A DNA stretch of 56,753 nt, taken from positions 1 through 56,753 of the forward strand of contig CANPXZ010000003.1 of assembly GCA_947587485.1 (NCBI GenBank). The letters run 5' to 3'. Each line of letters opens with the position of its first letter. Within the stretch, counting starts at the first letter, position 1. Positions 5,392 to 43,313 of this stretch are shown here, one piece after another. Both the position numbers and the translations under genes were made by a program. Below the pieces are notes generated by a model. The model was given only the letters and a program-made list of their open reading frames with translations, was not told the origin of the DNA and searched no databases. Origin of the DNA: an uncultured Oscillospiraceae bacterium. GTDB taxonomy: Bacteria > Bacillota > Clostridia > Oscillospirales > Oscillospiraceae.

Positions 5392-5422
5392 GGCAAAACC
5401 TCCACGTCACAGATGCTTCACT

Positions 5423-5642: not shown

Positions 5643-5676
5643 CCCCCTGCCGCAGTCATTTCTCTGCGGCAGGGGG
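5643..5676 (-). terminator. Rho-independent terminator of murC
   Basis: A perfect 13-bp stem (CCCCCTGCCGCAG and its complement) with an 8-base loop starts about 20 bases past the murC stop. Read on the minus strand it is followed by a T-rich run (CATCGTTTTAT). Confidence 0.8.
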
Positions 5677-5695
5677 TATTGCTGTCTTTTGATCT

Positions 5696-24892: not shown

Positions 24893-24957
24893 TGCCTGTC
24901 ACACTTTTGCCGCCGGGCGCGTTATTGAAAGAGAAGCTCGAAAAGGAGGTCAGGACA

Positions 24958-26430: not shown

Positions 26431-26442
26431 GCGGCGCAAAAA

Positions 26443-26459
26443 TAAGAAAGAATTAACAA
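26443..26459 (+). promoter_or_regulatory. Candidate response-regulator site: TAAGAA-N5-TAACAA
   Basis: Two hexamers start at 26443 and 26454, an exact 11-bp period, as OmpR/PhoB-type tandem dimers require. A TATAAT (-10) at 26502-26507 lies downstream with a weak TTCATG (-35) at 26479-26484, just before the regulator gene. Similar pairs precede 28692 and 36032. Confidence 0.6.
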
Positions 26460-26542
26460 TTCCGTCCCGCCCCGGCCTTTCATGGCTCTTTGCTGTTTTG
26501 TTATAATAAGACAGCATTCTTTTTATCATGGGAGGGCGCGGG

Positions 26543-27205: not shown

Positions 27206-27206
27206 G

Positions 27207-28610
27207 ATGAAGCTGTGGCAGAAGGCGGCCGCCGTCTGCGCCGGGGTGCTGGCGCTGGTGGTGGCCGCGTGCTCTGTGGCGATGCTCCTGTACGCCCGGC
27301 ACACGATCCTGGACATGTCCAGGGAGCAGGTCAAGGCCAAGCAGCGGGACCTGGCCACGTCCTTTTCCGAGATGGCCAACTACTACCTTCTGGAGGCGGA
27401 CACGAGCCCGGTGCGGGAGTCTTTGGTGGATTACTGTTTTACCCGCTTCGCCGACGACACCTCCGTTCTCATGCAGGAGGGCCGGACCCTCAGCTCCGCT
27501 CTGGACATCGACCCCTCCCGGTGGCTGGACCCGGGGACCGGGGACGGCTCCTGGGAGGACAGGTACGGTCAGCGGACCTACGAGGGCCGCATCCGGGGCC
27601 GGGACGTGTTCATGGCGGCGAGCCAGGTGAGCGTCCGGGCGGAGCGCTACGCCGTCTATACGGTGGCGGACGTGACGGACATCCACCGGGACCTGCGGAC
27701 CATGGCGCTGATATTCCTGGCCGTGAGCCTTGGGGGCATCGCCCTGGGGGCCGGGGCGGTGACGCTTCTCATGCGCCGGGGGGCGAAGCCCCTGGCGGCC
27801 CTGTCCGACGCGGCCAGGCGCATCGCCGGCGGGGCCTATGACGTGCGGGCCGACGTGAGCACGAAGGACGAGATCGGCGCTCTGGCGGCGGATTTCAACA
27901 CCATGGCCGCCGCCGTCCAGTCAAGGGTGGACGAACTGACCGAGACCGCCCAGCGCCAGCGGCTTTTCATCGGCGGGGTGAACCACGAGTTCAAGACCCC
28001 TCTCACCGCCATATTGCTCCACACAAGGCTCCTGCAAAAGGTCAATCTGACCGAGGCGGAGCGGGCTCAGTCCCTGACCCACATCGAGCGGCAGTGCACC
28101 TGGCTGGAGCGGCTGACCCAAAAGCTGCTCCGGACCATCACCCTGGACCAGGAGGTCGAGAAGACCCCCGTCCCGGCCCGGGTGCTCCTGGACCGGGTCC
28201 GGGCCAGCACCCAGCAGATCATGGCCGACCGGAACGTGACGCTCCTGACGGACTGCGACGGGTCCGATCTTCTGGCGGACGCGGATCTCATGCAGTCCCT
28301 GCTGGTGAACCTGGCGGACAACGCCGGGAAGTCCTACGACCCGGACAGCCCGGACCGGACCGTCCGGCTCACGGTCCGGGGCAATGTGATCGAGGTGAAG
28401 GACGCCGGCCGGGGCATCCCGCCGGAGGCCATCGAGCGCATTTTTGAGCCCTTTTACATGGTGGATAAGTCCCGGAGCAAAAAGCTGGGCGGCAGCGGTT
28501 TGGGCCTGGCCCTGGTCAAGGCCATCGCCGACGCCCACGGGGCGAAGCTGGAGGTGGAAAGCGCCCCCGGGAAGGGCACGACATTCCGGGTCATCCTGCC
28601 GACGGAATAA
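27207..28610 (+). CDS. Sensor histidine kinase
   Basis: A 467-residue membrane kinase. Helix 1 is residues 8-30 and helix 2 residues 165-189, which bracket an extracellular sensor of about 135 residues of unrecognised type. HAMP follows (190-242), then the dimerisation helix with phosphoacceptor His260 in GGVNHEFKTPLTAI. The ATPase domain has the N box LLVNLADNAGKS, the G1 box DAGRGIPPE, the F box FEPFYM and the G2 box GGSGLGLALV. It is co-transcribed with the regulator. The second TAAGAA direct repeat overlaps its stop codon. The signal is unknown; cell-envelope stress or a peptide is plausible given the lipoprotein array behind it. Confidence 0.95.
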   Translation: MKLWQKAAAVCAGVLALVVAACSVAMLLYARHTILDMSREQVKAKQRDLATSFSEMANYYLLEADTSPVRESLVDYCFTRFADDTSVLMQEGRTLSSALDIDPSRWLDPGTGDGSWEDRYGQRTYEGRIRGRDVFMAASQVSVRAERYAVYTVADVTDIHRDLRTMALIFLAVSLGGIALGAGAVTLLMRRGAKPLAALSDAARRIAGGAYDVRADVSTKDEIGALAADFNTMAAAVQSRVDELTETAQRQRLFIGGVNHEFKTPLTAILLHTRLLQKVNLTEAERAQSLTHIERQCTWLERLTQKLLRTITLDQEVEKTPVPARVLLDRVRASTQQIMADRNVTLLTDCDGSDLLADADLMQSLLVNLADNAGKSYDPDSPDRTVRLTVRGNVIEVKDAGRGIPPEAIERIFEPFYMVDKSRSKKLGGSGLGLALVKAIADAHGAKLEVESAPGKGTTFRVILPTE

Positions 28611-28624
28611 GAAAGAAATAAGAA
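28608..28624 (+). promoter_or_regulatory. Candidate response-regulator site: TAAGAA-N5-TAAGAA
   Basis: Two identical hexamers start at 28608 and 28619, exactly 11 bp apart, the first overlapping the kinase stop codon. A possible -10, CATAAT, lies at 28656-28661. The first type B lipoprotein gene starts at 28692. Confidence 0.65.
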
Positions 28625-28691
28625 CCGGATGATAGTTTTTCATTTTCCCTTCCTCCATAATAGGCTTATCCCTATAAAGGAGGCTGACGGT

Positions 28692-30134
28692 ATGAAACGA
28701 TTTCTGCCCTTTGTTCTGCTGCTGGCCCTGGCGCTGACCGGCTGCCAGAGCACCCCGGAAGCGCCCATCGTGGCCGGGAAGAGCAGCGACGATCTTCTGG
28801 AAAAGGCGGCGGCGGAGACCTCCGGCGCCCTGGCCCAGCGGGTGGAGGCCCCGGCCCGGTACGAGGACGCCTTCGCCAGCACCGGCGGGGAGCTTCAGGT
28901 GACCGTGGACGCGGCGGTGACCGTGCCCGACGCGGACAAGGTGCCCATCGTCCGGGTCACGCCCGCCAACATCACCCAGGACCAGGCATACGCCCTCATG
29001 GACACGCTGGTCCAGGGGGAGCTTTACGACTTCGACACCCCCGAGACCAAATCGGAGATCGCCGACAAGATCGTGGAGGCCAAGCGGCGGCTGGCCGAGG
29101 GCCCCACCGAGGACGAGGAGAACACGGTCTACTTGAGCGCGGACGATGATTCAGGCGAGGACGTCACCATGACCTGGGAGGAATACATGCAGGACGCCAT
29201 CGACCGGCTCACGGAGCAGTACGACGCCGCCCCGGAGACCGCGGAAAAGCAGGTCACCACCGGCGAGCTCAAGCCGGACGCGGACGACGAACGCGCACTC
29301 CAGGCCGGGGGCGAGAATACCACGAAAGAACACGGCTGGGAGGCCCTGGATATCGAGGCGTATGAGGACACCCAATACCTGTCCCGGGCCTGGTACGTCC
29401 GGGACCATGAGAACACGGGGGTCACCTTCACGTACCTGCCTGCGGAGAGCTTCAACGACTTCTTCCTATTTTCCGACATCGACATCGCGAGCATACCGGA
29501 CGTGACCGTGACGGCGGACGAGGCCCGGGCCATGTGCGACTCCGTGGTAAAAGCCCTGGACATCCCCGACATGGCATTTTACGCCATCTGCAAGAAATAC
29601 GGCGGCGCCCAGGAGGCCCCCCGGTGCTGCTGGGAGCTGCAATATACCCGCAATATCGGCGGCGTGCCGGTGGCCTATTCCAGCATCGACGTGGGCATCA
29701 ACGGCATGCCCGCAGACACGCAGATCTTCCAGATCCCCTGGACCAACGAAAAGCTCAACTTCTACGTGAACGACGACGGCATCGTGGCCATGGAGTGGGA
29801 GTCCCCCTACGAGCTGACGGAGACGGTCACGGAGGACGCGGCCCTGCTGCCCTTCTCCGACGTGATGGACATCTTCAAAAAGATGTACGTGGTGGAGAAC
29901 GACGGCCAGGCGAAGGACGTGACCGTCGACCGCATCTGCCTGAGCTACATGCGCGTCAGCGAGCGGGACAAGAACTACACCGGTCTGCTGGTGCCGGTGT
30001 GGGACTTTTACGGCACGGAGCTGTGGCACCCGGAGGGCGGCGAGGACTATACCTCCTTCTATGACCCGGACTCGAGCATGCTCACCATCAACGCCGTGGA
30101 CGGCACCATCATCGACCGGGGCCTTGGCTACTGA
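28692..30134 (+). CDS. Lipoprotein of the expanded family, type B (copy B1)
   Basis: A 480-residue lipoprotein, lipobox ALTGC (Cys 18), then QSTPEAPIVAGKSSDDLLEK. It has the block LQVTVDAAVTVPDADKVPIV, a TWEEYMQ segment, the Cys-Cys-Trp motif in RCCWELQYTRNIGGVPVAY, then EDAALLPFSDVMDIFKKMYV and LLVPVWDFYG. It ends LTINAVDGTIIDRGLGY. AAAGGAGG precedes the ATG. It is the first of five tandem type B genes and the most divergent at its N-terminus. It follows the TCS and its predicted regulator site. No enzymatic motif is seen; a role as surface sensor or kinase modulator is hypothetical. Confidence 0.82.
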   Translation: MKRFLPFVLLLALALTGCQSTPEAPIVAGKSSDDLLEKAAAETSGALAQRVEAPARYEDAFASTGGELQVTVDAAVTVPDADKVPIVRVTPANITQDQAYALMDTLVQGELYDFDTPETKSEIADKIVEAKRRLAEGPTEDEENTVYLSADDDSGEDVTMTWEEYMQDAIDRLTEQYDAAPETAEKQVTTGELKPDADDERALQAGGENTTKEHGWEALDIEAYEDTQYLSRAWYVRDHENTGVTFTYLPAESFNDFFLFSDIDIASIPDVTVTADEARAMCDSVVKALDIPDMAFYAICKKYGGAQEAPRCCWELQYTRNIGGVPVAYSSIDVGINGMPADTQIFQIPWTNEKLNFYVNDDGIVAMEWESPYELTETVTEDAALLPFSDVMDIFKKMYVVENDGQAKDVTVDRICLSYMRVSERDKNYTGLLVPVWDFYGTELWHPEGGEDYTSFYDPDSSMLTINAVDGTIIDRGLGY

Positions 30135-30147
30135 GGGAGGCGCGGAC

Positions 30148-31590
30148 ATGAAGAGATTTTTTGCATGCGCGCTGGCTCTGGTCCTTCTTCTTGCCGCCGG
30201 GTGCCAGAGCACCCCGGAGGAAGGCATCGTCAAGGGCAAGAGCAGCGACGCGCTGATCGAGAAAGCCCAGACTACGCCCGGCCAGGGTACCCTGGCCCAG
30301 CGGGTGGAGGCCCCGGAGCGGTACGAGGACGCCTTCGCCAGCGCCGGCGGGGAGCTTCAGGTGACCGTGGACGCGGCCGTGACGGTCCCGGAGGCGGAGA
30401 CCATCCCCATCTGGCGGGTGACCGACGGGTCCGTCACCCAGGAGCAGACGGACGTGCTCATGGAAAAGCTGGTGCGCACGACACTCTACGACACCCAGCA
30501 GGAGCGGACCAAGGACGAGATCATGGAGGACCTGCTGGCGGCCAAGCAGGAGCTGGCCCAGGGTCCCGTCGATGAGGGGGACGATGCCCTCTATTATGAG
30601 ATGGGCCCGGACGGAGAGACCGTTTCCCAGACCTGGGAGGAGTACATGCAGGACCAGATAGACTGGCTCACGGAGCGGTACGAGGCCGCGCCGGAGACGG
30701 TGGAGCCCCGGCCCGTTACCGGGGAGCTTACGCAGGTGGACGAATACACCCAGCGCATCGACGGTAAAGGCTGGTCCCGGGAAGCGGGCTATGAACATCT
30801 GAACATCCACAATAACAAGTGGAACGTGGGGGATTCCACGGTCCAATACTGCCGCCAGGACGAGGATAGCTTCAGCTTCAACTCGGACTATCTGGACCGG
30901 CGGAGCTTTGAGCAGTTCTATCCGGATGTCCCCATCGACTCGATCCCGGACGTGGCCATGTCCCGTGAGGAAGCCATAGCCCAAGGCACCGCCTTGGCCG
31001 ACGCGCTGGGCATACCGGGCCTTGCGCTGTGGTCCTGCGAAAAGCAGTACGCCCCCGGCACCGCCGCCATGGGCTTCGGGGACGGGGCGCCCAAGTGCTG
31101 CTGGACGCTGCGGTTCGTGCGGACCGTGGGCGGCGTGCCCCTGACCTACGCCAGCAACAACTTCATGATGTCCCTGGACGATGAAGTCTATCAGGCCCCC
31201 TGGGAATACGAATCCCTGGCCATGTATATGGACGACAGCGGCGTGGTGGGCTTTTACTGGAAGGCCCCCTACGACGTGCAGGAGGCCATGACGGAGGATT
31301 CGGCTCTTCTGCCTTTTGATGATATCATGGACATCTTCAAAAAGATGTACGTGGTCCAAAACGACGGCACGGCCATGGACGCGACGGTCACCGACATCCG
31401 CCTGGGCTATGTTCGGGTGCGGATGCAGGACAAGCGAAACGAGGCCATGCTGGTCCCGGCCTGGGACTTCTTCGGCCAGTGCACCGGCCATGAGGCGGGG
31501 GAGACCTACCCCGTGGGCGACCCGTCCCGGAGTCTTCTCACCGTCAACGCCATCGACGGCACGGTCATCGACCGGTCCCAGGGCTATTGA
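30148..31590 (+). CDS. Lipoprotein of the expanded family, type B (copy B2)
   Basis: A 480-residue lipoprotein, lipobox LAAGC (Cys 19), then QSTPEEGIVKGKSSDALIEK. The 108-bp stretch at 30193-30300 is identical to that in copy B3. The middle region is its own: an ERTKDEIMEDLLAAKQELA helix and a CCWTLRFVRTVGGVPLTYAS variant. The end reads LLTVNAIDGTVIDRSQGY. It is separated from B1 by 13 bases with the ribosome site GGGAGG. The mix of identical and divergent stretches fits duplication with gene conversion and diversification of the exposed middle domain. Confidence 0.82.
   Translation: MKRFFACALALVLLLAAGCQSTPEEGIVKGKSSDALIEKAQTTPGQGTLAQRVEAPERYEDAFASAGGELQVTVDAAVTVPEAETIPIWRVTDGSVTQEQTDVLMEKLVRTTLYDTQQERTKDEIMEDLLAAKQELAQGPVDEGDDALYYEMGPDGETVSQTWEEYMQDQIDWLTERYEAAPETVEPRPVTGELTQVDEYTQRIDGKGWSREAGYEHLNIHNNKWNVGDSTVQYCRQDEDSFSFNSDYLDRRSFEQFYPDVPIDSIPDVAMSREEAIAQGTALADALGIPGLALWSCEKQYAPGTAAMGFGDGAPKCCWTLRFVRTVGGVPLTYASNNFMMSLDDEVYQAPWEYESLAMYMDDSGVVGFYWKAPYDVQEAMTEDSALLPFDDIMDIFKKMYVVQNDGTAMDATVTDIRLGYVRVRMQDKRNEAMLVPAWDFFGQCTGHEAGETYPVGDPSRSLLTVNAIDGTVIDRSQGY
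30193..30300 (+). repeat. 108-bp conserved block, copy in B2
   Basis: It covers the lipobox codons and the next 30 or so residues, up to LAQ. I find it identical base for base to the block at 31649-31756. Confidence 0.85.
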
Positions 31591-31603
31591 GGGAGGCGCG
31601 GAG

Positions 31604-33037
31604 ATGAAAAAGTTACTTGCGCTTTCCCTCTCCCTGGTCCTGCTTCTTGCCGCCGGGTGCCAGAGCACCCCGGAGGAAGGCATCGTCAAGGGCAAGAGCA
31701 GCGACGCGCTGATCGAGAAAGCCCAGACTACGCCCGGCCAGGGTACCCTGGCCCAGAGGGTGAACGCCCCGGCGCATTATGACGCCGCATTTTCCAACGA
31801 AAGCGGCACGCTGACCGTGACCGTGGACGCCGCCGTCACGGTCCCTGACGCGGAGGCCGTGCCCATCATCCGGGTCAAACCGGCCAATATCACCCAGGCG
31901 CAGACGGACGTGCTCATGGACCAGCTGGTCCAGGGGGAGCTTTACGATTTTGACATGCCCAGGACCAAAGCGGAGATCGCCGACCAGATCGTGGAGGTAA
32001 AACGGCAGATCGCCCAGGGCCCCTCGCCGGAGGAGGCGAACACGCGCTACTCCACCGAGGACGGCGAGCTCACCTGGGAGGAATACATGCAGGACGTGTA
32101 CCTGCCGATGCTCCAGGAGCAGTACGACGCCGCCCCGGAGACGGCGGAGCGCCAGCTTGCCACCGGCAAGCTCACCGACGACGGCTCCGGCCTAAAGTTG
32201 GCCGGGGGCGCGAACACCACGGCGGAGCTGGGCTGGGAGTCTCTGGTCGTCTACGACAGCGAGAACATGGACATTCCCACCTCCGCCCAGTACGTCCGGG
32301 CGGCGGCGGAGGGGTTCATCTTTTCCTACAACACGGCGGAGCAGTTCAGCCAGACCATGGACTACGACGGTGTGGACATCGAGGACCTGGCCCCCGTGTC
32401 CGTGACAGAGGCGGAGGCCCGGGCCATGTGCGACGCTGTGGTAAAAGCCCTGGACATCCCTAACATGACCCTGTACGCCGCAGCGAAGAAATACGGCGGC
32501 GGCAAGGAAGCGCCCCGGTGCTGCTGGGAGCTGCAATACACCCGCAATATCGGCGGCGTGCCCGTGGCATACACCGGCTATTCGGTAGGCTTGCCCGACC
32601 TCCCCGCCGGGGCATCCGCCGCTGAGGCGGTCTACATTGCCCCCTGGGACTATGAAAAGCTCAACTTCTACGTGAACGACGGCGGTATCGTGGGTATGAA
32701 CTGGCAAAGCCCCTGCCAGCTCACCGACACCGTGACGGAGGACGCGGCCCTCATGGATTTTGCCGACGTGGCGGATATCTTCCAAAAGATGTTCACGGTC
32801 AAGTACGACGGCCAGGACATGGACGTGACCGTGAGCGCCATCCGCCTGAGCTACATGCGGGTCAGCGAGCAGGACAAGAGCTACACCGGCCTTCTTGTCC
32901 CCGTCTGGGACTTTTACGGCTCCCAGACCTGGACCTTGGGAGACGGCGAGCCCTATACCTTCTATGACCCGGACATGAGCCTGCTCACCATCAACGCCGT
33001 GGACGGCACCGTCGTCGACCGGAGCCTGGGCTACTGA
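31604..33037 (+). CDS. Lipoprotein of the expanded family, type B (copy B3)
   Basis: A 477-residue lipoprotein, lipobox LAAGC (Cys 19). Its first 50 residues match B2 and B5 while its centre and C-terminal half match B1. For example RCCWELQYTRNIGGVPVAY and MCDAVVKALDIPNMT are nearly as in B1, and GLLVPVWDFYGS follows. It therefore looks like a mosaic of paralogues. It ends LLTINAVDGTVVDRSLGY. The spacer to B2 is 13 bases with GGGAGG. The long in-frame extension upstream of the ATG at 31604 is B2 read in another frame. Confidence 0.82.
   Translation: MKKLLALSLSLVLLLAAGCQSTPEEGIVKGKSSDALIEKAQTTPGQGTLAQRVNAPAHYDAAFSNESGTLTVTVDAAVTVPDAEAVPIIRVKPANITQAQTDVLMDQLVQGELYDFDMPRTKAEIADQIVEVKRQIAQGPSPEEANTRYSTEDGELTWEEYMQDVYLPMLQEQYDAAPETAERQLATGKLTDDGSGLKLAGGANTTAELGWESLVVYDSENMDIPTSAQYVRAAAEGFIFSYNTAEQFSQTMDYDGVDIEDLAPVSVTEAEARAMCDAVVKALDIPNMTLYAAAKKYGGGKEAPRCCWELQYTRNIGGVPVAYTGYSVGLPDLPAGASAAEAVYIAPWDYEKLNFYVNDGGIVGMNWQSPCQLTDTVTEDAALMDFADVADIFQKMFTVKYDGQDMDVTVSAIRLSYMRVSEQDKSYTGLLVPVWDFYGSQTWTLGDGEPYTFYDPDMSLLTINAVDGTVVDRSLGY
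31649..31756 (+). repeat. 108-bp conserved block, copy in B3
   Basis: Identical to the block at 30193-30300, while sequence on either side diverges. Confidence 0.85.
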
Positions 33038-33050
33038 GGGAGAGGCGGCT

Positions 33051-34487
33051 ATGAAGAGGTTTTTAGCGCTCTCCCTCTCCCTGGCGCTGGTTTTCACCGC
33101 CGGGTGTCAGAGCACCCCGGAGGAAGGCATCGTCAAGGGCAAGAGCAGCGACGCGCTGATCGAGAAAGCCCAGGCCGAACCCGGCCAGGGTACCCTGGCC
33201 CAGCGGGTGGGCGCGCCGGAGACCTATCAGGCCAGCGTATCCAGCGCCGACGGAAAGCTGAACGTGACCATCGACGCGGCGGTGACCGTCCCGGAGGCGG
33301 ACAGCGCGCCCATTTTCCAGGTCGCGCCGGGGACCATCACCCAGGACCAGGCGGACGCGCTGATAGGCTCCCTGGTCCACACGGAGCTGTACGCCCCTGA
33401 TGGATACCGGACCCGGGACGAGATCATGGAGGACCTGCTGGCCGCCAAGCGGAAGCTGGCGGAGGGACCGTCGGAGGCGGACGCGAACACGTCCTACGCG
33501 ATCAACGGCCAGGAGGCTACCTGGGAGGAAAATATGCAATTTCTGATAGACGTGCTCACGGCCGAGTATGAGTCCGCCCCGGATCAATCGGAGAGGACGC
33601 CCATTTCCGGTCAGTTCCAGGAGGAACAGGCATACGACAGAGCGATCTACACGATCGTCGGTCAGGGCGAATCGGAGGAATACGGCTATGAGGGCATCCA
33701 GATCGTACAGGATCAGCCGGGTGTGGTGGGCGAGACCAGGGCCCGATATTCGCGGACGGAAAACTTTTCCCAGGGCTATATGACCCGGCAGAAAATGGAG
33801 CTGTATTACCCCGAGCTGGACCTGTCTGCCGTGCCGGAGCCTCACCTCACTGCGGAGGAAGCCCAGGCCCGGGCGGACGCGGTGGTACAAACTCTGGATA
33901 TTCCTTACATGAGCTGCTACTCCGTCAATTTGATGTACTGCACAGAGGACTACAGCATGGGAGGTCTCAGAAACGACGGCGTTCTGCCCCGGTGCTGCTG
34001 GGCGGTGCAGTATACCCGCTCCATCGGCGGCGTGCCCGTCACCTATGTGAACAACGCCGTGAGCTTCACGATGGGCGGGCCGTTCGAGAGACAGTGGGAG
34101 AACGAGAGCCTGACGCTGTATGTCAATGACAGCGGCGTCGTGGATATGGTCTGGGATGGCCCCTGTGAGCTGGAGGACGCGGTGACAGAGGACTCGGCCC
34201 TGCTTTGTTTTGACGACATCATGGATATTTTTGAAAAGATGTATGTGGTCCAAAATGACGGCCTTGACGAGGATGACACCATCACGGACATCCGCCTGGG
34301 TTATGTCCGTATCCGGCAGCAGGACGTGAGCGACAGCGGCCTTCTGGTCCCGGCCTGGGACTTTTTTGGCAGCGTATGCCAGCATGCGGAGGGCGAGGAC
34401 GATCAGGCTGTTGAGGACCCTTGCCGCAGCCTTTTCACCATCAACGCCGTGGACGGGAGCATCATCGACCGGTCCCTGGGCTACTGA
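33051..34487 (+). CDS. Lipoprotein of the expanded family, type B (copy B4)
   Basis: A 478-residue lipoprotein, lipobox FTAGC (Cys 19), then QSTPEEGIVKGKSSDALIEK. It has its own central region, and the Cys-Cys-Trp motif appears as LPRCCWAVQYTRSIGGVPVTY. Its C-terminal half has EDSALLCFDDIMDIFEKMYV and LLVPAWDFFG and ends LFTINAVDGSIIDRSLGY. The spacer to B3 is again 13 bases (GGGAGAGGCGGCT). In the conserved 108-bp block it carries a few changes relative to B2 and B3. Its function is unknown. Confidence 0.82.
   Translation: MKRFLALSLSLALVFTAGCQSTPEEGIVKGKSSDALIEKAQAEPGQGTLAQRVGAPETYQASVSSADGKLNVTIDAAVTVPEADSAPIFQVAPGTITQDQADALIGSLVHTELYAPDGYRTRDEIMEDLLAAKRKLAEGPSEADANTSYAINGQEATWEENMQFLIDVLTAEYESAPDQSERTPISGQFQEEQAYDRAIYTIVGQGESEEYGYEGIQIVQDQPGVVGETRARYSRTENFSQGYMTRQKMELYYPELDLSAVPEPHLTAEEAQARADAVVQTLDIPYMSCYSVNLMYCTEDYSMGGLRNDGVLPRCCWAVQYTRSIGGVPVTYVNNAVSFTMGGPFERQWENESLTLYVNDSGVVDMVWDGPCELEDAVTEDSALLCFDDIMDIFEKMYVVQNDGLDEDDTITDIRLGYVRIRQQDVSDSGLLVPAWDFFGSVCQHAEGEDDQAVEDPCRSLFTINAVDGSIIDRSLGY
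33096..33203 (+). repeat. 108-bp conserved block, copy in B4
   Basis: The most diverged of the four copies: a changed first base, one lipobox wobble change and a replaced hexamer (GCCGAA for ACTACG), otherwise the same. Confidence 0.8.
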
Positions 34488-34500
34488 GGGAGGCGCGGAT

Positions 34501-35904
34501 ATGAAAAAGTTACTTGCGCTTTCCCTCTCCTTTATCCTGTTTCTCGCCGCCGGGTGTCAGAGCACCCCGGAGGAAGGCATCGTCAAGGGCAAGAGCAGCG
34601 ACGCGCTGATCGAGAAAGCCCAGACTACGCCCGGCCAGGGTACCCTGGCCCAGCGGGTGAACGCCCCGGAGCATTACGAGGCCGCGTTTTCCAACGAGAG
34701 CGACGCCCTTCGCGTGACCGTGGACGCGGCCGTCACCGTCCCCGACGCGGAGGCCGCGCCCATCGTCCGGGTGACGCCCGCCGAGATCACCCAGGACCAG
34801 GCGGACGCGCTCATGGACGCGCTGGTCCGGGGACCCCTGTATGCCGAGACCACCAAGGAGCAGATCATGCTCCGTATTCTGGAGGCCAAGCGGGAGTTGG
34901 CCCAGGGGGAACCGCCGGGGAACAACAGCTATGTCGTCGGCGACGAGGAAGTGTCCTTTGAGCAGTGGATGCAGAACGTCATTGACCAGTACTATGACGA
35001 ATATGACGCCGCCCCCGCCGCCGGGGAGTGCGAGCCCATCTCCGGTAAGTTTCAGAAGGACCGGGACGGCGACAGCGGCATTTATGGGCTGGGAATGACG
35101 GAGGAATACGGCTATGAGAGGCTCTCCGTCTGGAACGCGGGCGTGTCCTATACGGAGGCTTACTACTCCCGCACCTCCCAGGACCATTCGGACGGAGGCG
35201 GCTATATGGAGGGCGTCAACTACATCACCCCCGGCCAGTCCCCCGCCCAGTTCGAGGGCGTGGACCTGCGCGCCATAGCCGACATCGCGGTCACCGAGGA
35301 GGAAGCCACGGCCCTTTGCGGCCAGGTGGTCTCCGCGCTGGGGCTGGAGGACATGACCCTTTACAGCGCCGGGAAAAAGTACGCCAGCAAGGACCCGCCC
35401 GATCACATGGGCTGGATCGTCCGCTATACCCGCGCTGTCAACGGCGTGCCCGTCACCTATACCAACGTGGAGGGCCTGGGCGAGGGGGCCGACGGCGAGG
35501 ACAACGGGTCCTATCAGGTGTCCTGGCCCTATGAGCGGCTGGACTTTCTCGTCAACGACGATGGGCTCGCGGCCATGGTTTGGCGCTCGCCCTATTCGGT
35601 GGACGGGACGGTGACGGAGGATTCGGCTTTGCTGCCCTTCTCCGACATCATGGACATCTTTGAAAAGATGGTCCTGGTGGAGCACGACGGCCTGGAGGCG
35701 GAGGTGACGGTGACGGACATCCGCCTGGGCTACACCCGCATCCGGGAGCGGGACAAGCGGGCCAGCGGCCTTCTGGTCCCCGCCTGGGACTTCTTCGGCA
35801 GCGTCGGCTACGACGACATGGAGCCGGTCAGCGACCCGGACCAGAGCCTTCTCACCATCAACGCCGTCGACGGCACCATCATCGACCGGAACCAGGGCTA
35901 CTGA
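34501..35904 (+). CDS. Lipoprotein of the expanded family, type B (copy B5)
   Basis: A 467-residue lipoprotein, lipobox LAAGC (Cys 19), the last and shortest of the tandem type B genes. The signal peptide and first 50 residues match B3 almost exactly (MKKLLALSLSFILFLAAGC). The Cys-Cys-Trp motif is lost: the equivalent is PDHMGWIVRYTRAVNGVPV. It ends LLTINAVDGTIIDRNQGY. The spacer to B4 is 13 bases with GGGAGG. The third regulator-type direct repeat starts directly after its stop codon and probably serves the next gene. Confidence 0.82.
   Translation: MKKLLALSLSFILFLAAGCQSTPEEGIVKGKSSDALIEKAQTTPGQGTLAQRVNAPEHYEAAFSNESDALRVTVDAAVTVPDAEAAPIVRVTPAEITQDQADALMDALVRGPLYAETTKEQIMLRILEAKRELAQGEPPGNNSYVVGDEEVSFEQWMQNVIDQYYDEYDAAPAAGECEPISGKFQKDRDGDSGIYGLGMTEEYGYERLSVWNAGVSYTEAYYSRTSQDHSDGGGYMEGVNYITPGQSPAQFEGVDLRAIADIAVTEEEATALCGQVVSALGLEDMTLYSAGKKYASKDPPDHMGWIVRYTRAVNGVPVTYTNVEGLGEGADGEDNGSYQVSWPYERLDFLVNDDGLAAMVWRSPYSVDGTVTEDSALLPFSDIMDIFEKMVLVEHDGLEAEVTVTDIRLGYTRIRERDKRASGLLVPAWDFFGSVGYDDMEPVSDPDQSLLTINAVDGTIIDRNQGY
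34546..34653 (+). repeat. 108-bp conserved block, copy in B5
   Basis: One base different (lipobox wobble position) from the copies at 30193 and 31649. Confidence 0.85.
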
Positions 35905-35906
35905 AT

Positions 35907-35923
35907 TAAGAAAATCTTAAGGC
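35907..35923 (+). promoter_or_regulatory. Candidate response-regulator site: TAAGAA-N5-TAAGGC
   Basis: TTAAG occurs at 35906-35910 and 35917-35921, again with an 11-bp period. The site sits between the B5 stop and the A3 gene at 36032. Confidence 0.55.
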
Positions 35924-35961
35924 TTTCCTTGAAATAAATCGTCCCTCTGACGGATATTCCC

Positions 35962-35990
35962 TGTGACGGATGGGCCCGCCCAAACGTCTA
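35962..35990 (+). promoter_or_regulatory. Candidate ECF-type promoter of copy A3
   Basis: TGTGAC (35962-35967), a 17-base spacer and CGTCTA (35985-35990). CGTC-type -10 boxes are typical of ECF sigma factors, and the -35 is one base from TGTAAC. It lies 42 bases before the A3 ATG. The two sibling type A genes are in the ECF operon. Confidence 0.5.
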
Positions 35991-36031
35991 ATGAGTATCC
36001 AAAACCATTACGAACGCAGGAGGGACATGTC

Positions 36032-37549
36032 ATGAAAAAGCGCATCGCGGCCGCCCTGGCGGCCATCATACTGCTGCTTGGCGGCTGCCAGGCCACGCCG
36101 GAAAAGGGCGTGGTGACCAGCAAGAACGACGGGGTCTTTGAGGCGGCGCTGGAGGACAAGGCCAGCCCTACCGTCGCCCCGGAGGCAGCGGAGGAACAGC
36201 CACCGGCCGTGGAAGATCAGACCGAGTCCACACCCGCGCAGGTGGTCTATGAGGACAGCTTCAACGGAGAACAGGGCGGGGGCGGCGTCAAATACCACGT
36301 GAAGGTGACAGAGCCCAACCTGCCCGGTCCCATGCCGGTGCTGCGGGTCCGGCCGCTGGAGCTGGACGGGGACACCGTTCACAAGGTGGCCCAGGCGTTT
36401 TTTGGCGACGGGCAGCTCAACGAGTACACCGGGCAAATGACCCGGGCGGAGCTGGAACAGGCTCTATTGGACGAAAAGCAGGACTACGCCGACTGGCAGT
36501 ATCGGATCGAGCAGGACCCGAGCACCGACGCGGACGACCGGGACTATGTGCGCGCCAGCTTTGAAGAGCGCATCACCCGGCTGGAGGAGCAATGCGCCGC
36601 CGCCCCGGAGACCATCGAGCAAAAGCCCCTGGACTGGCAGTTCCACGAGGCGAGCTATTATCCCGACTACTACGGCAGGGAGGACCTGGGCGAGCAGTAC
36701 CTTATGGGCCTGGGCCAGTATAACGGCCAGGACTATGAGCTGAACGCCTTCAAGCGGCTGGGGACCGATTACTCGGTCCAGCGGCTGGGGATCTGGCCCT
36801 ATGTGCCCCCGGCCATGGAGGAGGCGCTGTATGCCGCCCAGGCCGAGGCCGAGCCGCCGGCCATCGACATGGACGCCGCCCGGGCCAGGGCCTTGGAGCT
36901 GGCGAACGGCTTGGGGCTGGGCCAGTTCGCCGTTGTGCCGGACGTGGCTATGGAGGCCGCCAGGGAGAACATGGACTTCGGCCCCAACACCGTGTGGCTG
37001 ACGCCGGCGTACAACGGCGTGCCCCTGACCTTCCATTTCGGCGGGTTCAACATCGCCTCCAAAGGCGGCGACGAGTACGCCTCCACCTACGGCTATGAGT
37101 ATATGACCTTCGATTTCGACGAGACGGGCGTCACGGGCTTTAGCTGGGAGAGCATGCACCAGGTGGTGGAGACCGTGAACGAAAACGTGCAGCTCCTGCC
37201 GTTCTCTGACATCCTCTCCGCCGCCGAGGACCAGATGCGGATGCTGGACATGGAGCGCAAGGGGCTGCTGTTGCAGGACGCCGCGTTGTCCATCGAGGTG
37301 ACGGACGTGGCCCTGGGCCTGAGCCGCATCCGGATGAAGGACAGCGCCACGGACTATTACATCACCCCCACCTACACCTTCTACGGCGTGGCCACCGTCT
37401 GCGACGAAAACGGCGAGCCCATCCCGGTCCCCGTCTATGATGAGAACGGCAACGAGACCGGCCGGACCGAGCCCATCGTGCATACCACGGAGCTGGCCGT
37501 GATCAACGCCGTGGACGGCTCCGCCATCGACGTGTACAAGGGATACTGA
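36032..37549 (+). CDS. Lipoprotein of the expanded family, type A (copy A3)
   Basis: A 505-residue lipoprotein, lipobox LLGGC (Cys 19), then QATPEKGVVTSKNDGVFEAA, which places it with A1 and A2 although it lies behind the type B array. Shared parts are NEYTGQMTRAELEQALLDEK, NVQLLPFSDILSAAEDQMRM and ALGLSRIRMKDSATDY, then ITPTYTFYG and ELAVINAVDGSAIDVYKGY. The ATG at 36032 follows CAGGAGGGACATGTC. It has its own promoter region with both an ECF-like motif and a response-regulator-like repeat, so it may integrate both signals. Confidence 0.82.
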   Translation: MKKRIAAALAAIILLLGGCQATPEKGVVTSKNDGVFEAALEDKASPTVAPEAAEEQPPAVEDQTESTPAQVVYEDSFNGEQGGGGVKYHVKVTEPNLPGPMPVLRVRPLELDGDTVHKVAQAFFGDGQLNEYTGQMTRAELEQALLDEKQDYADWQYRIEQDPSTDADDRDYVRASFEERITRLEEQCAAAPETIEQKPLDWQFHEASYYPDYYGREDLGEQYLMGLGQYNGQDYELNAFKRLGTDYSVQRLGIWPYVPPAMEEALYAAQAEAEPPAIDMDAARARALELANGLGLGQFAVVPDVAMEAARENMDFGPNTVWLTPAYNGVPLTFHFGGFNIASKGGDEYASTYGYEYMTFDFDETGVTGFSWESMHQVVETVNENVQLLPFSDILSAAEDQMRMLDMERKGLLLQDAALSIEVTDVALGLSRIRMKDSATDYYITPTYTFYGVATVCDENGEPIPVPVYDENGNETGRTEPIVHTTELAVINAVDGSAIDVYKGY

Positions 37550-37599: not shown

Positions 37600-38364
37600 A
37601 TGAGAAACACCATCTATTCCAGCGTCCGGCAGAGCGTGTGCTCCGCCCGGTTCTGGCTGGGCGCGGTGTTCATCGCCCTGGTGCTGTTTCTGTCCTCCGC
37701 CGACGCGGTATCCGAGGCGTTTCGGGCGGAGGACCCCCTGGCATACGGCTATCACGGGGATTTCATCCTGAAGGCCCTGGACTCGGACGCGCTGACCATA
37801 TGCCTGCCCATCGTGTGCGCGCTGCCCTACGCGGCCAGCTTCGTGGACGACGTGAAGACGGGGTTTTTAAAGCTCTACATCCACCGCACCTCCTGCCGGG
37901 GCTACATATTGGGCAAGGCGGCGGGGTGTCTGGTGTCCGGCGGGGCGGGCATCGTGCTGGGACTGTGGCTGGCCTACGGGGCGGCCGCGGCGGTGTTCGC
38001 GCCCATGGAGGGGCCCCTGGCGCCGGACACGCCGGAGCCGGAATATGCCATGACGCTGCTGCGAAACTGTGGCCTCATCTTCCTCTCCGGAGGCTTTTGG
38101 TCACTGTTCGGCATGACCATGAGCGCGTTCATGGCCAGCAAGTACATCGCCTACGCCGCGCCGTTCATCTTTTACTATGTGCTCATCATCCTGTGCGAGC
38201 GGTATTTTACCTCCCTGTACGTGGTCTATCCCAAGGCGTGGCTGAATCCCGGCGAGGAATGGGCCATGGGCCGGTGGGGCCCGGCGCTGGTGATTTTGGA
38301 GCTGATCGCGGGCACGGCGCTGTGCTTCGGGGCGGCGGTGAGAAGGAGGGTGCGCGGTTTATGA
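37600..38364 (+). CDS. ABC-2-type transporter permease (first)
   Basis: A 254-residue integral membrane protein with about six hydrophobic segments, for example FWLGAVFIALVLFLS near residue 18 and IAYAAPFIFYYVLIILC. A long first extracytoplasmic loop is followed by CALPYAASFVDDVKTGFLKLY. The layout is that of ABC-2 permeases used for export of peptides, antibiotics or polymers. It follows A3 by 50 bases with CAGGAGGGC before the ATG, so it may share the A3 transcript. The second permease overlaps its stop by four bases. Confidence 0.78.
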   Translation: MRNTIYSSVRQSVCSARFWLGAVFIALVLFLSSADAVSEAFRAEDPLAYGYHGDFILKALDSDALTICLPIVCALPYAASFVDDVKTGFLKLYIHRTSCRGYILGKAAGCLVSGGAGIVLGLWLAYGAAAAVFAPMEGPLAPDTPEPEYAMTLLRNCGLIFLSGGFWSLFGMTMSAFMASKYIAYAAPFIFYYVLIILCERYFTSLYVVYPKAWLNPGEEWAMGRWGPALVILELIAGTALCFGAAVRRRVRGL

Positions 38365-39257
38365 GAACTTTTCGGCAGATCATGGCCGTGGTGGCCTACA
38401 ACTTCCGCCAGTGGCGGCGCAATCCCCGGATCGCCGTCACCTTCGCGCTGGCGTTTATCTTGAGCTTTCTTCTCAGCGACAAGGCGGTCAATTTCGCCGT
38501 GGAGCATAAGACCACCATGCAGCTGGCCGAGCCCTTCATCTGGACCTTCGGGGACAGCAACTCCATATTGCTCATTTCGCTGCTGCTGATTTTGCTCTTC
38601 ACGGACATGCCCTTTTTGTCCTCCGGGACGCCCTTTTTCCTTATGCGCATTGACCGGGCCAAGTGGATCACGGGGCAGCTTGTCTATACCATGCTGGCGA
38701 CGGCGCTTTTTTTGCTGTTCGTGCTGGGCTCCACCATCGCGGTCAGCGTCCGCCAGTCCTACGTCGGCGACGTGTGGAGCGAGACGGCGGCCATCCTGGG
38801 CTACTCCGGCATCGGGAAGGAGATCGCCCTGCCGGCCCTGGTCAAGACCCTGGAGATGAGCTTTCCCTACCGGTGCATGGTCACCATCTTCGGCCTCATG
38901 CTGTGCTACTCGGTGGTGATGGTGTTCATCATGCTGGTGTTCAACCTGACCCGGGGCGGCGCGGCGGGCATCGTCAGCGGCTTTGCGTTCAGCGTGTTCG
39001 GCCTGCTCTTAAAGCCGGAGACCATCAAGACCGTGCTCCAGCTTCCCGACGAGATGTTCTATAAGGCCAACGTGGCGGTGGGGTGGCTGTCGCCCCTCAA
39101 TCAGGCCACGTATCACATGCACAACTTCGGCTACGATCTGCTGCCCCGGCTGTGGCAGTCCTTCGCCATCTTCGGCGCTCTGATGCTGCTGGGGTATATC
39201 CTGGCCCTTGTCGCCATTCGCAAGTATAACTTTGTCTTTACGGGAACGGAGGGATAG
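38361..39257 (+). CDS. ABC-2-type transporter permease (second)
   Basis: A 298-residue membrane protein with a short basic N-terminus (MRTFRQIMAVVAYNFRQWRR) and six to seven hydrophobic helices (IAVTFALAFILSFLL, SILLISLLLILLF, MLATALFLLFVLGSTIAV and others). It overlaps the first permease by ATGA and is followed two bases later by the ATPase gene, so the three form one transporter. The two permeases are not close paralogues, suggesting a heterodimeric channel. The substrate is not visible in the sequence. Confidence 0.78.
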   Translation: MRTFRQIMAVVAYNFRQWRRNPRIAVTFALAFILSFLLSDKAVNFAVEHKTTMQLAEPFIWTFGDSNSILLISLLLILLFTDMPFLSSGTPFFLMRIDRAKWITGQLVYTMLATALFLLFVLGSTIAVSVRQSYVGDVWSETAAILGYSGIGKEIALPALVKTLEMSFPYRCMVTIFGLMLCYSVVMVFIMLVFNLTRGGAAGIVSGFAFSVFGLLLKPETIKTVLQLPDEMFYKANVAVGWLSPLNQATYHMHNFGYDLLPRLWQSFAIFGALMLLGYILALVAIRKYNFVFTGTEG

Positions 39258-39259: not shown

Positions 39260-39907
39260 ATGCCGGGAAGCTCCGCCATCAGCGTACAGAACGTGTCCAA
39301 GACCTTCGGGGACACCACGGTGCTCCGGGACGTGAGCCGGGAATTCGAGGAAGGCCGGGTCCACGGCATCGTGGGCAACAACGGCTCCGGCAAGACCGTG
39401 CTGATGAAGTGCATCTGCGGCTTCCTGCCGCCCAGCAAGGGAAAGATCCTGGTCCGGGGCCGTCAGGTGGGCCGGGACATGGACTTTCCCGACGACACCG
39501 GCATCATCATCGAGACGCCGGGCTTTCTGCCCAACCTGACCGGGCAGAAGAATCTGGAGCTGCTGGCCTCCTTGCGGCGGCGGGTGGACCGGGAGGGCAT
39601 CCGGGAGACCATCCGCCGGGTGGGTCTGGACCCGGACAGCAAAAAGCCCGTGGGCAAATATTCTCTCGGCATGCGCCAGCGGCTGGGCATCGCCCAGGCC
39701 ATTATGGAGAACCCCTCCATCCTCATTCTGGACGAGCCCTTCAACGGCCTGGACAAAAACGGCGTGGCCCACATGCGGGAGGTCATCAAGGGCCTGCGGG
39801 AGCAAGGCAAGACCATCATTTTGGCCAGCCACAACCAGATGGATATAGACGAGCTTTGCGACACCGTGTGCGAGATGGACGCGGGGGTCATGACCATGGT
39901 GAAATGA
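39260..39907 (+). CDS. ABC transporter ATP-binding protein (intact)
   Basis: A 215-residue ATPase with all motifs: Walker A GNNGSGKTVLM (about residues 35-45), Q-loop region in TGIIIETPGFLPNLTG, signature YSLGMRQRLGIAQAI, Walker B ILILDEPFNGLDKNG and the switch histidine in ILASHNQMD. It energises the two ABC-2 permeases upstream. Its end overlaps the start of a second ATPase-like gene that lacks these motifs, so the pair may form a heterodimer with a single functional site. Confidence 0.93.
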   Translation: MPGSSAISVQNVSKTFGDTTVLRDVSREFEEGRVHGIVGNNGSGKTVLMKCICGFLPPSKGKILVRGRQVGRDMDFPDDTGIIIETPGFLPNLTGQKNLELLASLRRRVDREGIRETIRRVGLDPDSKKPVGKYSLGMRQRLGIAQAIMENPSILILDEPFNGLDKNGVAHMREVIKGLREQGKTIILASHNQMDIDELCDTVCEMDAGVMTMVK

Positions 39908-40500
39908 TGGAGCCGGTATTGACATTGCAAAACGTATCCGCCTATGACCGGGACGGCCGGGCGCTTGTGCCGGCCGTTGACTTGACGGTCCTGCCCGGCC
40001 AGCGGGTCCGGGTGATCGCCGAGCGGCCCCGGTTTGAGGCCCTGGCCCGGATCATCGGCGGGCTGATCGAGCCGGACAGCGGCGAAGCGGCCCTTGCCGG
40101 GTCCGTGGGGTACATGTCCCCGGAGCCGGGTTTTTGGGAGGACCTGACCGTGCTGGACAACGCGGCCCTGCCCCTGACGGCGGCGGGCGTGGGTAAGAGG
40201 CAGCGGCGGGAGACCGCCCTGGCCGTGCTGGAGAGCCTGGGGATGGGCTACGCCGCCCACGCCTATCCCAAGAGCCTGGGACTGTGCGAACAGCGGCTGG
40301 CGGCCCTGGCCAGGGCTCTGGTCCGGGGACCGAAGCTTCTCATCCTGGCCGAGCCCGCGTCCATGCTGGACGAAAAGGAGCGGGAGCGCTTTGCCGCCGC
40401 TCTGGCCGAACGGTGGGAGACGGACCGCTTCGCGGCGGTGTACAGCGGCCCGGAGATCATGCCGGCGGACAAGACGGTCCGCCTTCAGGAGGGAGATTGA
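39904..40500 (+). CDS. ABC ATPase-like subunit with lost Walker motifs
   Basis: A 198-residue protein with an ABC ATPase fold outline. It has TLQNVSAYDRDGRALVPAVD at the start, SPEPGFWEDLTVLDNAALPL around the Q-loop, and the signature-like SLGLCEQRLAALARAL. At the Walker A position it reads IAERPRFEALA (residues 38-48) instead of GxxGxGKT, and Walker B is LLILAEP, with alanine replacing the magnesium aspartate and no glutamate context change. It should not hydrolyse ATP. Two ATG codons abut (39904, 39907). It overlaps the intact ATPase gene by four bases and precedes the stalk protein by three. Confidence 0.85.
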   Translation: MMEPVLTLQNVSAYDRDGRALVPAVDLTVLPGQRVRVIAERPRFEALARIIGGLIEPDSGEAALAGSVGYMSPEPGFWEDLTVLDNAALPLTAAGVGKRQRRETALAVLESLGMGYAAHAYPKSLGLCEQRLAALARALVRGPKLLILAEPASMLDEKERERFAAALAERWETDRFAAVYSGPEIMPADKTVRLQEGD

Positions 40501-40503: not shown

Positions 40504-42234
40504 ATGAAACGAACGATCCTGATGCTGCTTATACTGCTTCTTTTGATCTCCTGCTTTGCGCTGCCCGCCTATTCCGACGGCGAGCCCCAGCCCGCCGGAG
40601 ACGCGCCCCTTGAGCCCGCCGGAGAGGCCCAGGACACCCAGGACCCGGCGGCTCCTGCCACGGAAGTACCCCCGGCCACGGAAGTACCCCCGGCTACAGA
40701 GGTGCCGCCGGCTACGGAAGCGCCCCCGGCCACGGAGGTACCTCCCGCCACGGAAGTACCTCCCGCCACGGAGGCGCCCGCCGCCACACCGGAGCCCACG
40801 GCCACACCGGAGCCCACCGTCACGCCGGGGGCCCCGGCCACGGAGGAGCCGGCGGCGCGGACTGTCAGCTTCCGGATCGACGACGCCTACATCTACGAGG
40901 GCATGGACCGGGCCTATAAGGACGGCTACGTGCCCCAGGTGAAGGACGGCACGGTGACGCTGGTGCTGCCCCTTCTGGCGGACGGCCCGGTCCTGGGGGA
41001 CCGGATCACGGTCACGCCCCAGCTGGGGGACACGGCCAGCTCGCCCTTTCAGTACAAGAACTATCAAAAGACCTTCGCCCTGGCGGACAACACCGTGAAC
41101 GTGCCCACCAAGAAGGGCAAGAAGAGCAAAAAGACCAAGGTCGTATCCTCCTACCTGGTCCGGTTCGACATCCCCCTCCGGGAGGACCGGCAGAACGGGG
41201 CCTATCCCATCGTGCTGGACATCCGGGCGGCGGACGAGAGCGGCGGCCAGATCGCGCAGAGCTACAACTGCTTCGTCACCGTCACCGATGCCGCGCCGGT
41301 GAAGGAGGAGGCCCCCGTCTATGGCGGCGGAGGCGGCGTGCCAGCCACGGAGGAGCCCGTGTCCGCGCCCCGGGTGCTGGTGAGCAGGTATAAGGTGAGC
41401 AAAACCCCCGTGATGGCCGGAGAGGACTTCACCGTCACCGTCACGCTGAAAAACACCAGCGACGAGAGCCCGGTGCAGAACATGCTGGTGACCGTGACCA
41501 GCGAAAGCGCCAACCTGGTGCTGAAAAACGACACCAGCACCATCTTTCTGGGGGGCCTGGAGGCCGGCGGGACCACAGACCTGGTGCTGAAGTTCGGCAC
41601 GGACCGGGAGACCCCCGCCCAGCGGTATGACATCTCCCTGGCCATGGACTTCGACGACGAGGAGGCCGTGAGCATGTCCTCCTCCGGGTCCGTCACCGTG
41701 GCGGTGGCCCAGCCGGTGGAGGTGGAGCTGGCCCCCTTCACCATGCCAAGCGAGATCAACGCCGGGGAGACGGTGCAGCTGTCCTTCCAGGTGATGAACC
41801 TGGGCCGCACGGAGATCTACAACGCCCGGGTGGAGCTGGAGGTACCGGGATTGTCCCCCTCCGGCAGCGCTTTCATCGGCAACATGGACCCGGGCACCTC
41901 CGCCACCGAGACCCTGAACGTGTTCGCCGGGATGAAGGAGGACGCCCCCGGCGGCGAGCGCTACGGCTACACCTCCGGTGTGGTGCGTCTGCTCTACGAG
42001 GACGCGGACGGGAAGGAGTATACCCAGGAGGTGAACACCGCCACCACCGTCAAGGAGCTGGTCATCGCCACGAAGGACCCGGTCCAGGAGCAGGAGAAGG
42101 CGGAGAAGGAACAGGCCCAAAGGGCGCAGTGGTGGGTGTTCGTGGCGGCCGGAGCGGTCATCGTCGCCGCGCTGGCGCTGATCCTGGGCCTGCGGAAGCG
42201 GGCGGCATCCTCGCCCCGGCACGCGCGAAAATGA
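40504..42234 (+). CDS. Surface protein with PATEVP stalk, Ig-like (CARDB-type) domains and C-terminal membrane anchor
   Basis: A 576-residue protein with a signal peptide (MKRTILMLLILLLLISCFAL) and a low-complexity proline/threonine/glutamate stalk (residues about 45-115). Beta-rich regions with two Ig-like units follow: FTVTVTLKNTSDESPVQNML and ETVQLSFQVMNLGRTEIYNA are CARDB/COG1361-like. A C-terminal helix WWVFVAAGAVIVAALALILG comes before a basic tail RKRAASSPRHARK. It is therefore displayed outside and anchored at its C-terminus. The next gene overlaps by four bases and encodes an FtsX-like permease, suggesting a joint complex. Confidence 0.8.
   Translation: MKRTILMLLILLLLISCFALPAYSDGEPQPAGDAPLEPAGEAQDTQDPAAPATEVPPATEVPPATEVPPATEAPPATEVPPATEVPPATEAPAATPEPTATPEPTVTPGAPATEEPAARTVSFRIDDAYIYEGMDRAYKDGYVPQVKDGTVTLVLPLLADGPVLGDRITVTPQLGDTASSPFQYKNYQKTFALADNTVNVPTKKGKKSKKTKVVSSYLVRFDIPLREDRQNGAYPIVLDIRAADESGGQIAQSYNCFVTVTDAAPVKEEAPVYGGGGGVPATEEPVSAPRVLVSRYKVSKTPVMAGEDFTVTVTLKNTSDESPVQNMLVTVTSESANLVLKNDTSTIFLGGLEAGGTTDLVLKFGTDRETPAQRYDISLAMDFDDEEAVSMSSSGSVTVAVAQPVEVELAPFTMPSEINAGETVQLSFQVMNLGRTEIYNARVELEVPGLSPSGSAFIGNMDPGTSATETLNVFAGMKEDAPGGERYGYTSGVVRLLYEDADGKEYTQEVNTATTVKELVIATKDPVQEQEKAEKEQAQRAQWWVFVAAGAVIVAALALILGLRKRAASSPRHARK
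40651..40776 (+). repeat. Seven 18-bp tandem repeats coding for PATE(V/A)P
   Basis: Units begin every 18 bases from 40651. They differ mainly at third codon positions (CCC/CCT/CCG, GTA/GTG/GCG). They encode the proline-rich stalk of the surface protein. Confidence 0.9.
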
Positions 42235-43313
42235 GGCTGGGGGACTTTCTGGCCCTGGCCCGCCGGGGGAGCCGCCGGGGCTTTGAGGCGGCGTTCGTGC
42301 TGTTCACGGCGGCGGCGGTGGCGGCGCTGTGCTTTGCCGGGGCTCTCCTCGCGGCCATTCGGGATGAAAAGGACGAGCCATGGGAGCTGACCGTCACGGC
42401 CCCCGGCTGGCTGGCCGTCACGGAGCAGTCCGTGCTGGATTTTCAGGCCATCGACGGCGTGACGGACGCTACCGGCGTCATAGAGGTGCCCGCCACCGTC
42501 CGGACCGGGAAATTCACCGCCGGCCTGACCCTGACGGGAATAGATGGGGACTATCTGGAGGGCCTGGTCTATACCGTGGGAGAGCCGTTCCCGGAGGGCG
42601 GGGCCATGCCCTGGATCGCCCTGAGCCAGGCGGCGGCCCGGTCCTTCGCCGACCCGGAGGACAAGACGAAGCGCTCGGCGAACACCATGCCGGACATCGA
42701 CTGGCTGGGCGCGGACTTCACCCTGGAGCTTGGCGAAAACGCCGTCTCTGCCAAGATCAGCGGCGTCTTTGAGGGGGAGGAGCCCGCCGCCTATATCAGC
42801 CGGGACATGGCCCGGGCGCTGCTGCAAGGCCAGGGCCTCCCCGCGGGCTACGCCGGGGCGCGGGTGCGGGTGAGAAACATCGGCGCGGCGGAGGCGGTGT
42901 CCCAGGCCGTCACGGACCTGGGCTACCAGGTGGAGAACCGGGACAGCGCCCGGCAGGAGAGCTGGGACGCCCGGACCCGGGAGGCGGTATACCTGGCGGT
43001 GCTGGCGGCGGCGGGCTTTCTCTGCGCCGGCATGGTCCGCCTGGCGGGGAACGCCCTGGACAGGGAGAACGCCCGCCGCCGGGAGGACGCGCTCCGCTGG
43101 GCGGGCGTGAGCGACGCCGCCATCGGAGGCATAGCCGCGCTTCGGAGCTTGCGGCTGAATTTGGCGGGCGCGGCCCTGGGCCTTGCCGCCCACTATCTGA
43201 TCGGGGCCCTGACCGCCCTGGGTGACCCGGCCTCCGGATTTGCCCTGGCGCTGCCCGGACCATGGGCGCCGGTGCCCATATGTATCTGCGTCCTGCTGGG
43301 CGCTGTGGAATGA
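42231..43313 (+). CDS. FtsX/MacB-like permease
   Basis: A 360-residue membrane protein. One helix is near the N-terminus (AFVLFTAAAVAALCFAGALLAA), then a 200-residue extracytoplasmic domain of MacB-PCD type (GVIEVPATVRTGKFTAGLTL, WIALSQAAARSFADP). Three C-terminal helices follow (AVYLAVLAAAGFLCAGMVRL and two more). The loop RREDALRWAGVSDAAIG matches the coupling region of FtsX-type permeases, which normally pair with their own ATPase. The only ATPases nearby are at 39260 and 39904. The start overlaps the previous stop (ATGA). It is the last gene of the ABC module. Confidence 0.75.
   Translation: MRLGDFLALARRGSRRGFEAAFVLFTAAAVAALCFAGALLAAIRDEKDEPWELTVTAPGWLAVTEQSVLDFQAIDGVTDATGVIEVPATVRTGKFTAGLTLTGIDGDYLEGLVYTVGEPFPEGGAMPWIALSQAAARSFADPEDKTKRSANTMPDIDWLGADFTLELGENAVSAKISGVFEGEEPAAYISRDMARALLQGQGLPAGYAGARVRVRNIGAAEAVSQAVTDLGYQVENRDSARQESWDARTREAVYLAVLAAAGFLCAGMVRLAGNALDRENARRREDALRWAGVSDAAIGGIAALRSLRLNLAGAALGLAAHYLIGALTALGDPASGFALALPGPWAPVPICICVLLGAVE

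Follow-up and report, generated by a model that had tools for sequence, protein, structure and literature searches.

The window, a 56,753-nucleotide stretch of DNA from an uncultured Oscillospiraceae bacterium, encodes a complete ABC-ATPase fold that is stripped of all nucleotide motifs. Whole lineages of gut bacteria have retained this pseudo-ATPase despite the motif loss. It is a degenerate, LolD/MacB-type ABC nucleotide-binding protein of 197 aa (39,907–40,500, plus strand, like the cassette genes, the two-component system and the six-gene array described below), as defined by its reading frame, motifs, Pfam match, structural model and a comparison of start codons. We infer that it neither binds nor hydrolyses ATP. 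With a probability of roughly 0.6, it is a former MacB-type NBD that now serves, independently of nucleotide, to dock or stabilise a shortened FtsX-like subunit, with energy supplied by the intact ATPase encoded immediately upstream.

The open reading frame spans 39,904–40,500, which is 198 residues when read from the ATG at 39,904. The start shared among orthologues is the ATG at 39,907, which overlaps the stop codon of the intact ATPase gene as TGATG. This start is taken as the conserved one because most orthologues have GTG at the first-codon position followed by ATG, and because in one of them (L037) the second codon is the sole start codon and is preceded by a TAA stop. The overlap with the intact gene (39,260–39,907 against 39,904–40,500), pointed out in the preliminary description, is confirmed.

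Motifs were read from the window letters aligned against intact relatives. The former P-loop, IAERPRFEALA (40,015–40,047), has no GxxGxGK[ST], is one residue shorter than a genuine P-loop and aligns as I-AERPRFEAL against VGTSGSGKTTL; the motif is missing in all same-genus orthologues. At 40,273–40,296, SLGLCEQR (core LGLCE) replaces the LSGGQ signature, which reads LSGGQQQR in intact relatives, and this former signature helix is the most conserved segment of the protein within the genus. The former Walker B, LLILAEP (40,336–40,356), carries Ala149 in place of Asp and is aligned with IIFADEP; relatives have AEP, TEP, ADP, SDP, AGP, NDP, AQP or EEP at this position. These three motif readings had been made from the letters before and are right, and two further losses had been overlooked: that of the Q-loop Gln (YMSPEPGF versus FIFQSFNL) and that of the H-loop His. 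A D-loop-like segment, SMLDEKE, is kept across most of the genus.

Held against a functional LolD/MacB-type ABC ATPase, the protein has the NBD fold; Walker A (GxxGxGK[ST]) is absent from the window and all same-genus loci, and the signature (LGLCE), the Walker B Asp-Glu (AE), the Q-loop Gln and the H-loop His fail as well. The fold outline is indeed kept, as had been proposed. Pfam ABC_tran matches at 33.4 bits (cut-off 25) and the AF2 model, which like the other structure models was built on alignments made in this analysis, is an ABC NBD with a pLDDT of 94.5 and a pTM of 0.90. In the PDB, its closest neighbours by fold are NBDs of MacB, LolD, FtsE and importers, among others; the highest TM value, 0.90, is reached with MacB 5lj9 and with 2pcj.

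Orthologues are present in 15 of the 35 genomes of the genus (E 1e-15 or better), at 16 loci; the loci of this study come almost entirely from metagenome-assembled genomes. All 16 share the motif losses, none has an internal stop in the pseudo-ATPase frame and, as far as the contigs reach, all share the gene order DUF6034 genes–perm1–perm2–intact ATPase–dead ATPase–CARDB–FtsX. The search for orthologues with the same losses and the same neighbours, suggested earlier, thus returned both at 16 of 16 loci. The genome that is basal in the trees (G253) keeps the outline of the P-loop, GQDGSGQT, with Lys changed to Gln. Pairwise Ka/Ks is 0.11–0.34 for the dead ATPase, 0.07–0.21 for the intact ATPase and 0.24–0.51 for the FtsX-like protein. 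The pseudo-ATPase is therefore under purifying selection, and the constraint on it is weaker than on its intact neighbour.

A strain-specific pseudogene is rejected, since orthologues in the genus have the same losses, the same neighbours and low Ka/Ks. The preliminary description had allowed for decay in one strain with motifs restored in orthologues; instead, the losses span the genus and beyond, and intact versions occur only in distant Clostridia. A frameshift or misassembly is ruled out because 16 loci from separate assemblies agree. In some genomes of the genus the operon occurs in two copies (L031 and L032 of G216; L030 and L086 of G266), and in G216 both copies carry the dead ATPase.

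The intact ATPase (39,260–39,907) is of the ABC-2/LanF-NosF type by its motifs (GNNGSGKT, YSLGMRQR, LILDEP, SHN), Pfam/NCBIfam and profile; TIGR03740, the lantibiotic-protection ATPase, is its nearest family, and the NBDs of NosF and ABCA are also close. It is preceded by two membrane protein genes placed by synteny: perm1 (37,600–38,364), an ORF for an ABC-2-like protein, and perm2 (38,361–39,257), which by comparison is 79–98% conserved within the genus. Neither matched a Pfam or NCBIfam family, and comparison of perm2 with solved structures gave no usable match. Behind the pseudo-ATPase lies the gene of a secreted CARDB-domain protein (40,504–42,234; Pfam, sequence) with a VPPATE-repeat linker and a C-terminal TM anchor. 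The linker is encoded by 18-nt repeats at 40,630–40,827, and its length varies strongly among orthologues. The last gene (42,231–43,313) encodes an FtsX/MacB-like membrane protein, assigned by profile, fold and TM scan, which is laid out as TM1, an extracellular domain, TM2, a coupling segment, TM3 and a poor TM4 in an eroded C-terminus.

Upstream of the cassette lies a two-component system (26,528–28,610) made up of a response regulator (26,528–27,205) and a histidine kinase (27,207–28,610). It is followed by an array of six DUF6034 lipoprotein-like genes (28,629–37,549; Pfam, synteny) that leads into perm1. In all, there are eight DUF6034 genes at 23,456–37,549, with the two-component system between them, and the copy number beside the exporter varies among relatives. 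A literature search found no paper on the DUF6034 family. The two-component system and the lipoprotein-like genes would point to a role at the cell envelope.

The ancestry of the pseudo-ATPase was traced through its own family, its partner and intact loci elsewhere. The best solved chains for its family profile include the MacB-like 5xu1 and LolD, with other NBDs close behind. A functional LolD/MacB-type ATPase would have the gene of a 4-TM FtsX/MacB permease beside it; here the neighbour is an FtsX-like protein whose TM4 is lost or eroded. PF02687 matches 13 of 17 family members and MacB_PCD matches 2, mostly under the curated cut-off. By profile the protein resembles LolF and weakly YtrF, and the fold of its model resembles LolE, MacB and YtrF. 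Three loci of the same order (L116–L118) hold a free ATPase–CARDB–FtsX module in which the ATPase is intact, LSGGQ included, and the permease is complete, and five others (L151–L153, L160 and L176) have the operon gene order of the window with an intact second ATPase and a full, 4-TM permease. Gene order and profiles together show that the pseudo-ATPase descends from the LolD/MacB-type ATPase of an ATPase–CARDB–FtsX module that stands behind a separate, ABC-2-type exporter. In Acutalibacter (L112 of G504, 8372–9115, and L186), the FtsX-like protein consists of an extracellular domain between two TMs only, and these reduced genes stand behind intact ATPase and CARDB genes.

A gradient of dismantling emerges across the Clostridia. 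With perm2 as the handle, 80 wider loci were retrieved out of 84,980 species genomes, and each was scored by what follows the intact ATPase. In state 0 (7 loci: L151–L153, L157, L159, L160 and L176), the second ATPase is an intact, LolD/MacB-type enzyme and the permease, where complete, is a 4-TM FtsX of 420–446 aa. In state 1 (9 loci), the P-loop is kept or nearly so, the signature, Q- and H-loops are lost, and the Walker B Glu is lost in most. State 2, in which the P-loop is gone, comprises 22 loci including those of the window genus. In state 3 (26 loci), the second ATPase gene is absent and the FtsX-like protein is usually cut to two TMs; all TM numbers given here rest on a hydropathy scan. 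At countable loci, the residues that follow TM2 of the FtsX-like protein number 113–118 in state 0, 53–94 in state 1, 55–96 in state 2 and 5–20 in state 3, with one state 3 protein at 51. The neighbouring intact ATPase retains its motifs in all four states; each motif is exact in 65–78 of 79 loci, including loci without a dead partner, and nearly all other cases are conservative changes.

When perm2 and the intact ATPase are combined in one tree, the state 2 loci group together (SH-aLRT 94), and so, separately, do those of state 0 (95). The tree of the second ATPase gene has two places of P-loop loss, with all degenerate forms on one side (92). Both trees come from quick, non-bootstrapped searches, and change is read in this direction by taking intact motifs as ancestral and not from a root. 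The idea that the ATPase gene and the coupling segment of the permease are always lost together, one-to-one, is rejected: in L164 and L175 the ATPase gene is absent but the FtsX-like protein retains a remnant of TM3. The phylogenetically independent pairs for a co-loss test number only 1–3, which is below the reach of significance. Two second ATPases (L081:1846–2436 of G313, and L170) have a perfect P-loop, GAGGSGKTT, and neither signature nor H-loop; judging from these motifs, they could bind nucleotide without hydrolysis, which would make them useful for comparison. Cultured relatives in which the P-loop is retained include Coprococcus catus, Cuneatibacter and Bacillus niameyensis.

Of the two ideas in the preliminary description, that the protein pairs asymmetrically with the intact ATPase, one site being dead, and that it has become an adaptor of the FtsX-like permease, the second is now the leading reading, by way of synteny, the MacB/LolD origin and the shrinking of the permease along with the ATPase. 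The pseudo-ATPase would dock on, or stabilise, the shortened FtsX-like protein at its coupling segment on the cytosolic side and would hold it, along with the CARDB partner, in an assembly in the membrane. The sole energy source of this assembly would be a homodimer of the intact ATPase beneath perm1 and perm2. In lineages that have lost the second ATPase gene, the coupling segment and last helices of the FtsX-like protein have usually gone too. One locus (L181) has the FtsX-like protein and perm1 in one uninterrupted ORF of 659 aa (4980–6956), in an operon permuted to ATPase–CARDB–[FtsX::perm1]–perm2 that has no second ATPase. This fusion, from one genome, suggests that the FtsX-like protein is part of the exporter complex; a second such fusion was not found among 299 family members/genomes. 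A more far-reaching proposal, which we hold tentatively and at less than even odds, is that a MacB-type transporter is being dismantled stepwise in Clostridia, its extracellular domains becoming fixed accessory subunits of a second ABC exporter that now supplies all the energy and the pseudo-ATPase being a working intermediate, a nucleotide-free conformational transmitter. The signature, Q- and H-loops would be lost first, then the P-loop, and then the whole ATPase together with the cytosolic part of the permease.

The pseudo-ATPase could instead be a regulatory adaptor of the perm1–perm2–intact ATPase exporter itself and make no contact with the FtsX-like protein. The shared operon, which has no energised NBD other than the intact ATPase, would fit such a role, and the highly conserved former signature helix could form a new interface. 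This is unlikely, however, as the ancestor was an NBD of the FtsX-partner type with a matching gene order, and where the pseudo-ATPase is lost the FtsX-like protein is shortened, with no such erosion of perm2 or the intact ATPase.

Slightly less probable again is the asymmetric heterodimer, in which the dead protein and the intact ATPase would share one active composite site. In known asymmetric pairs, the live site consists of Walker A/B and the H-loop of one NBD and the signature of the other (PMC7756269). The overlapping genes, with probable translational coupling, and the retained SMLDEKE segment are what such a pair might show, but the dead protein has lost Walker A, Q-loop, Walker B, H-loop and signature, so that neither composite site can be completed. 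The signature loop, which a live site would have to borrow, is missing from the dead protein as well, and this makes an asymmetric pair improbable. Complementary degeneration leaving one complete composite site was not found: the partner is intact in all motifs, has no complementary changes and, in many lineages, occurs alone. Moreover, the dead protein is LolD/MacB-like and the intact one LanF/NosF-like, which places them in separate NBD families. Most likely, the intact ATPase works as a homodimer on perm1/perm2, since the dead protein lacks both site halves and the intact motifs are kept with or without it, and the dead ATPase remains with the FtsX-like protein. Slow decay of a useless remnant on its way to loss is the least probable of these explanations: it is suggested by the loss gradient, with the gene wholly absent in many lineages, and by evolution faster than that of the neighbouring ATPase, but is opposed by Ka/Ks far under 1, a frame open at 16 of 16 loci, a high-confidence fold, conserved helix and D-loop segments and a constant position throughout the genus.

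Among known systems, the closest layout is that of Bacillus subtilis YtrBCDEF, which is predicted to combine YtrB2CD, an exporter of the ABC-2 type, with YtrE2F2, a pair of the FtsX type in which YtrE is the working NBD pair of YtrF (PMC11466899), and which is connected to cell-wall synthesis (PMC12772383). The window likewise has ABC-2-like permeases with their own ATPase and an FtsX-type permease with its own ATPase in one operon, and the FtsX-like profile and model match YtrF; this is a likeness of synteny and profile. Unlike in YtrBCDEF, the second ATPase is dead in the window (it is intact in the seven state 0 loci), a CARDB protein is added, and DUF6034 genes and a two-component system precede the cassette, the latter in place of the GntR-type repressor YtrA, which is not in the operon. 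LolD/MacB/FtsE-type systems (type VII, mechanotransmission) share the NBD fold and profile and an FtsX/MacB-like partner, and intact modules of the same order have the same ATPase–CARDB–FtsX arrangement; they differ from the present case, in which all nucleotide motifs are lost, TM4 of the partner is lost or eroded and the module sits within an ABC-2 exporter operon. LanFEG/NosDFY-type exporters have the same perm1–perm2–intact ATPase core, but here perm1 and perm2 lie outside Pfam/NCBIfam families and a CARDB/FtsX-like module is attached. TM287/288, MRP1, Pdr5 and B. subtilis RbsA/NupO also have non-canonical NBD motifs fixed by evolution, with losses limited to one site of a pair that serves one set of membrane domains (PMC7756269, PMC11466899), whereas here all motifs are lost in one protein and none in its neighbour. 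No dead MacB-type ATPase was recognised among the titles and abstracts found, and neither the dead second ATPase nor the CARDB partner nor the stepwise loss appeared in the papers found.

The second ATPase gene is dispensable to the system in many lineages, and the present contribution of the pseudo-ATPase may therefore be small. Pseudo-enzymes are well known among kinases; to our knowledge, few stand-alone ABC ATPase subunits have lost every nucleotide motif and yet been retained. Here, every stage between an intact and an absent gene is represented by living organisms at one gene position, and the partner permease changes in step. This series makes it testable how an ABC module uncouples from ATP and what role an NBD has without it.
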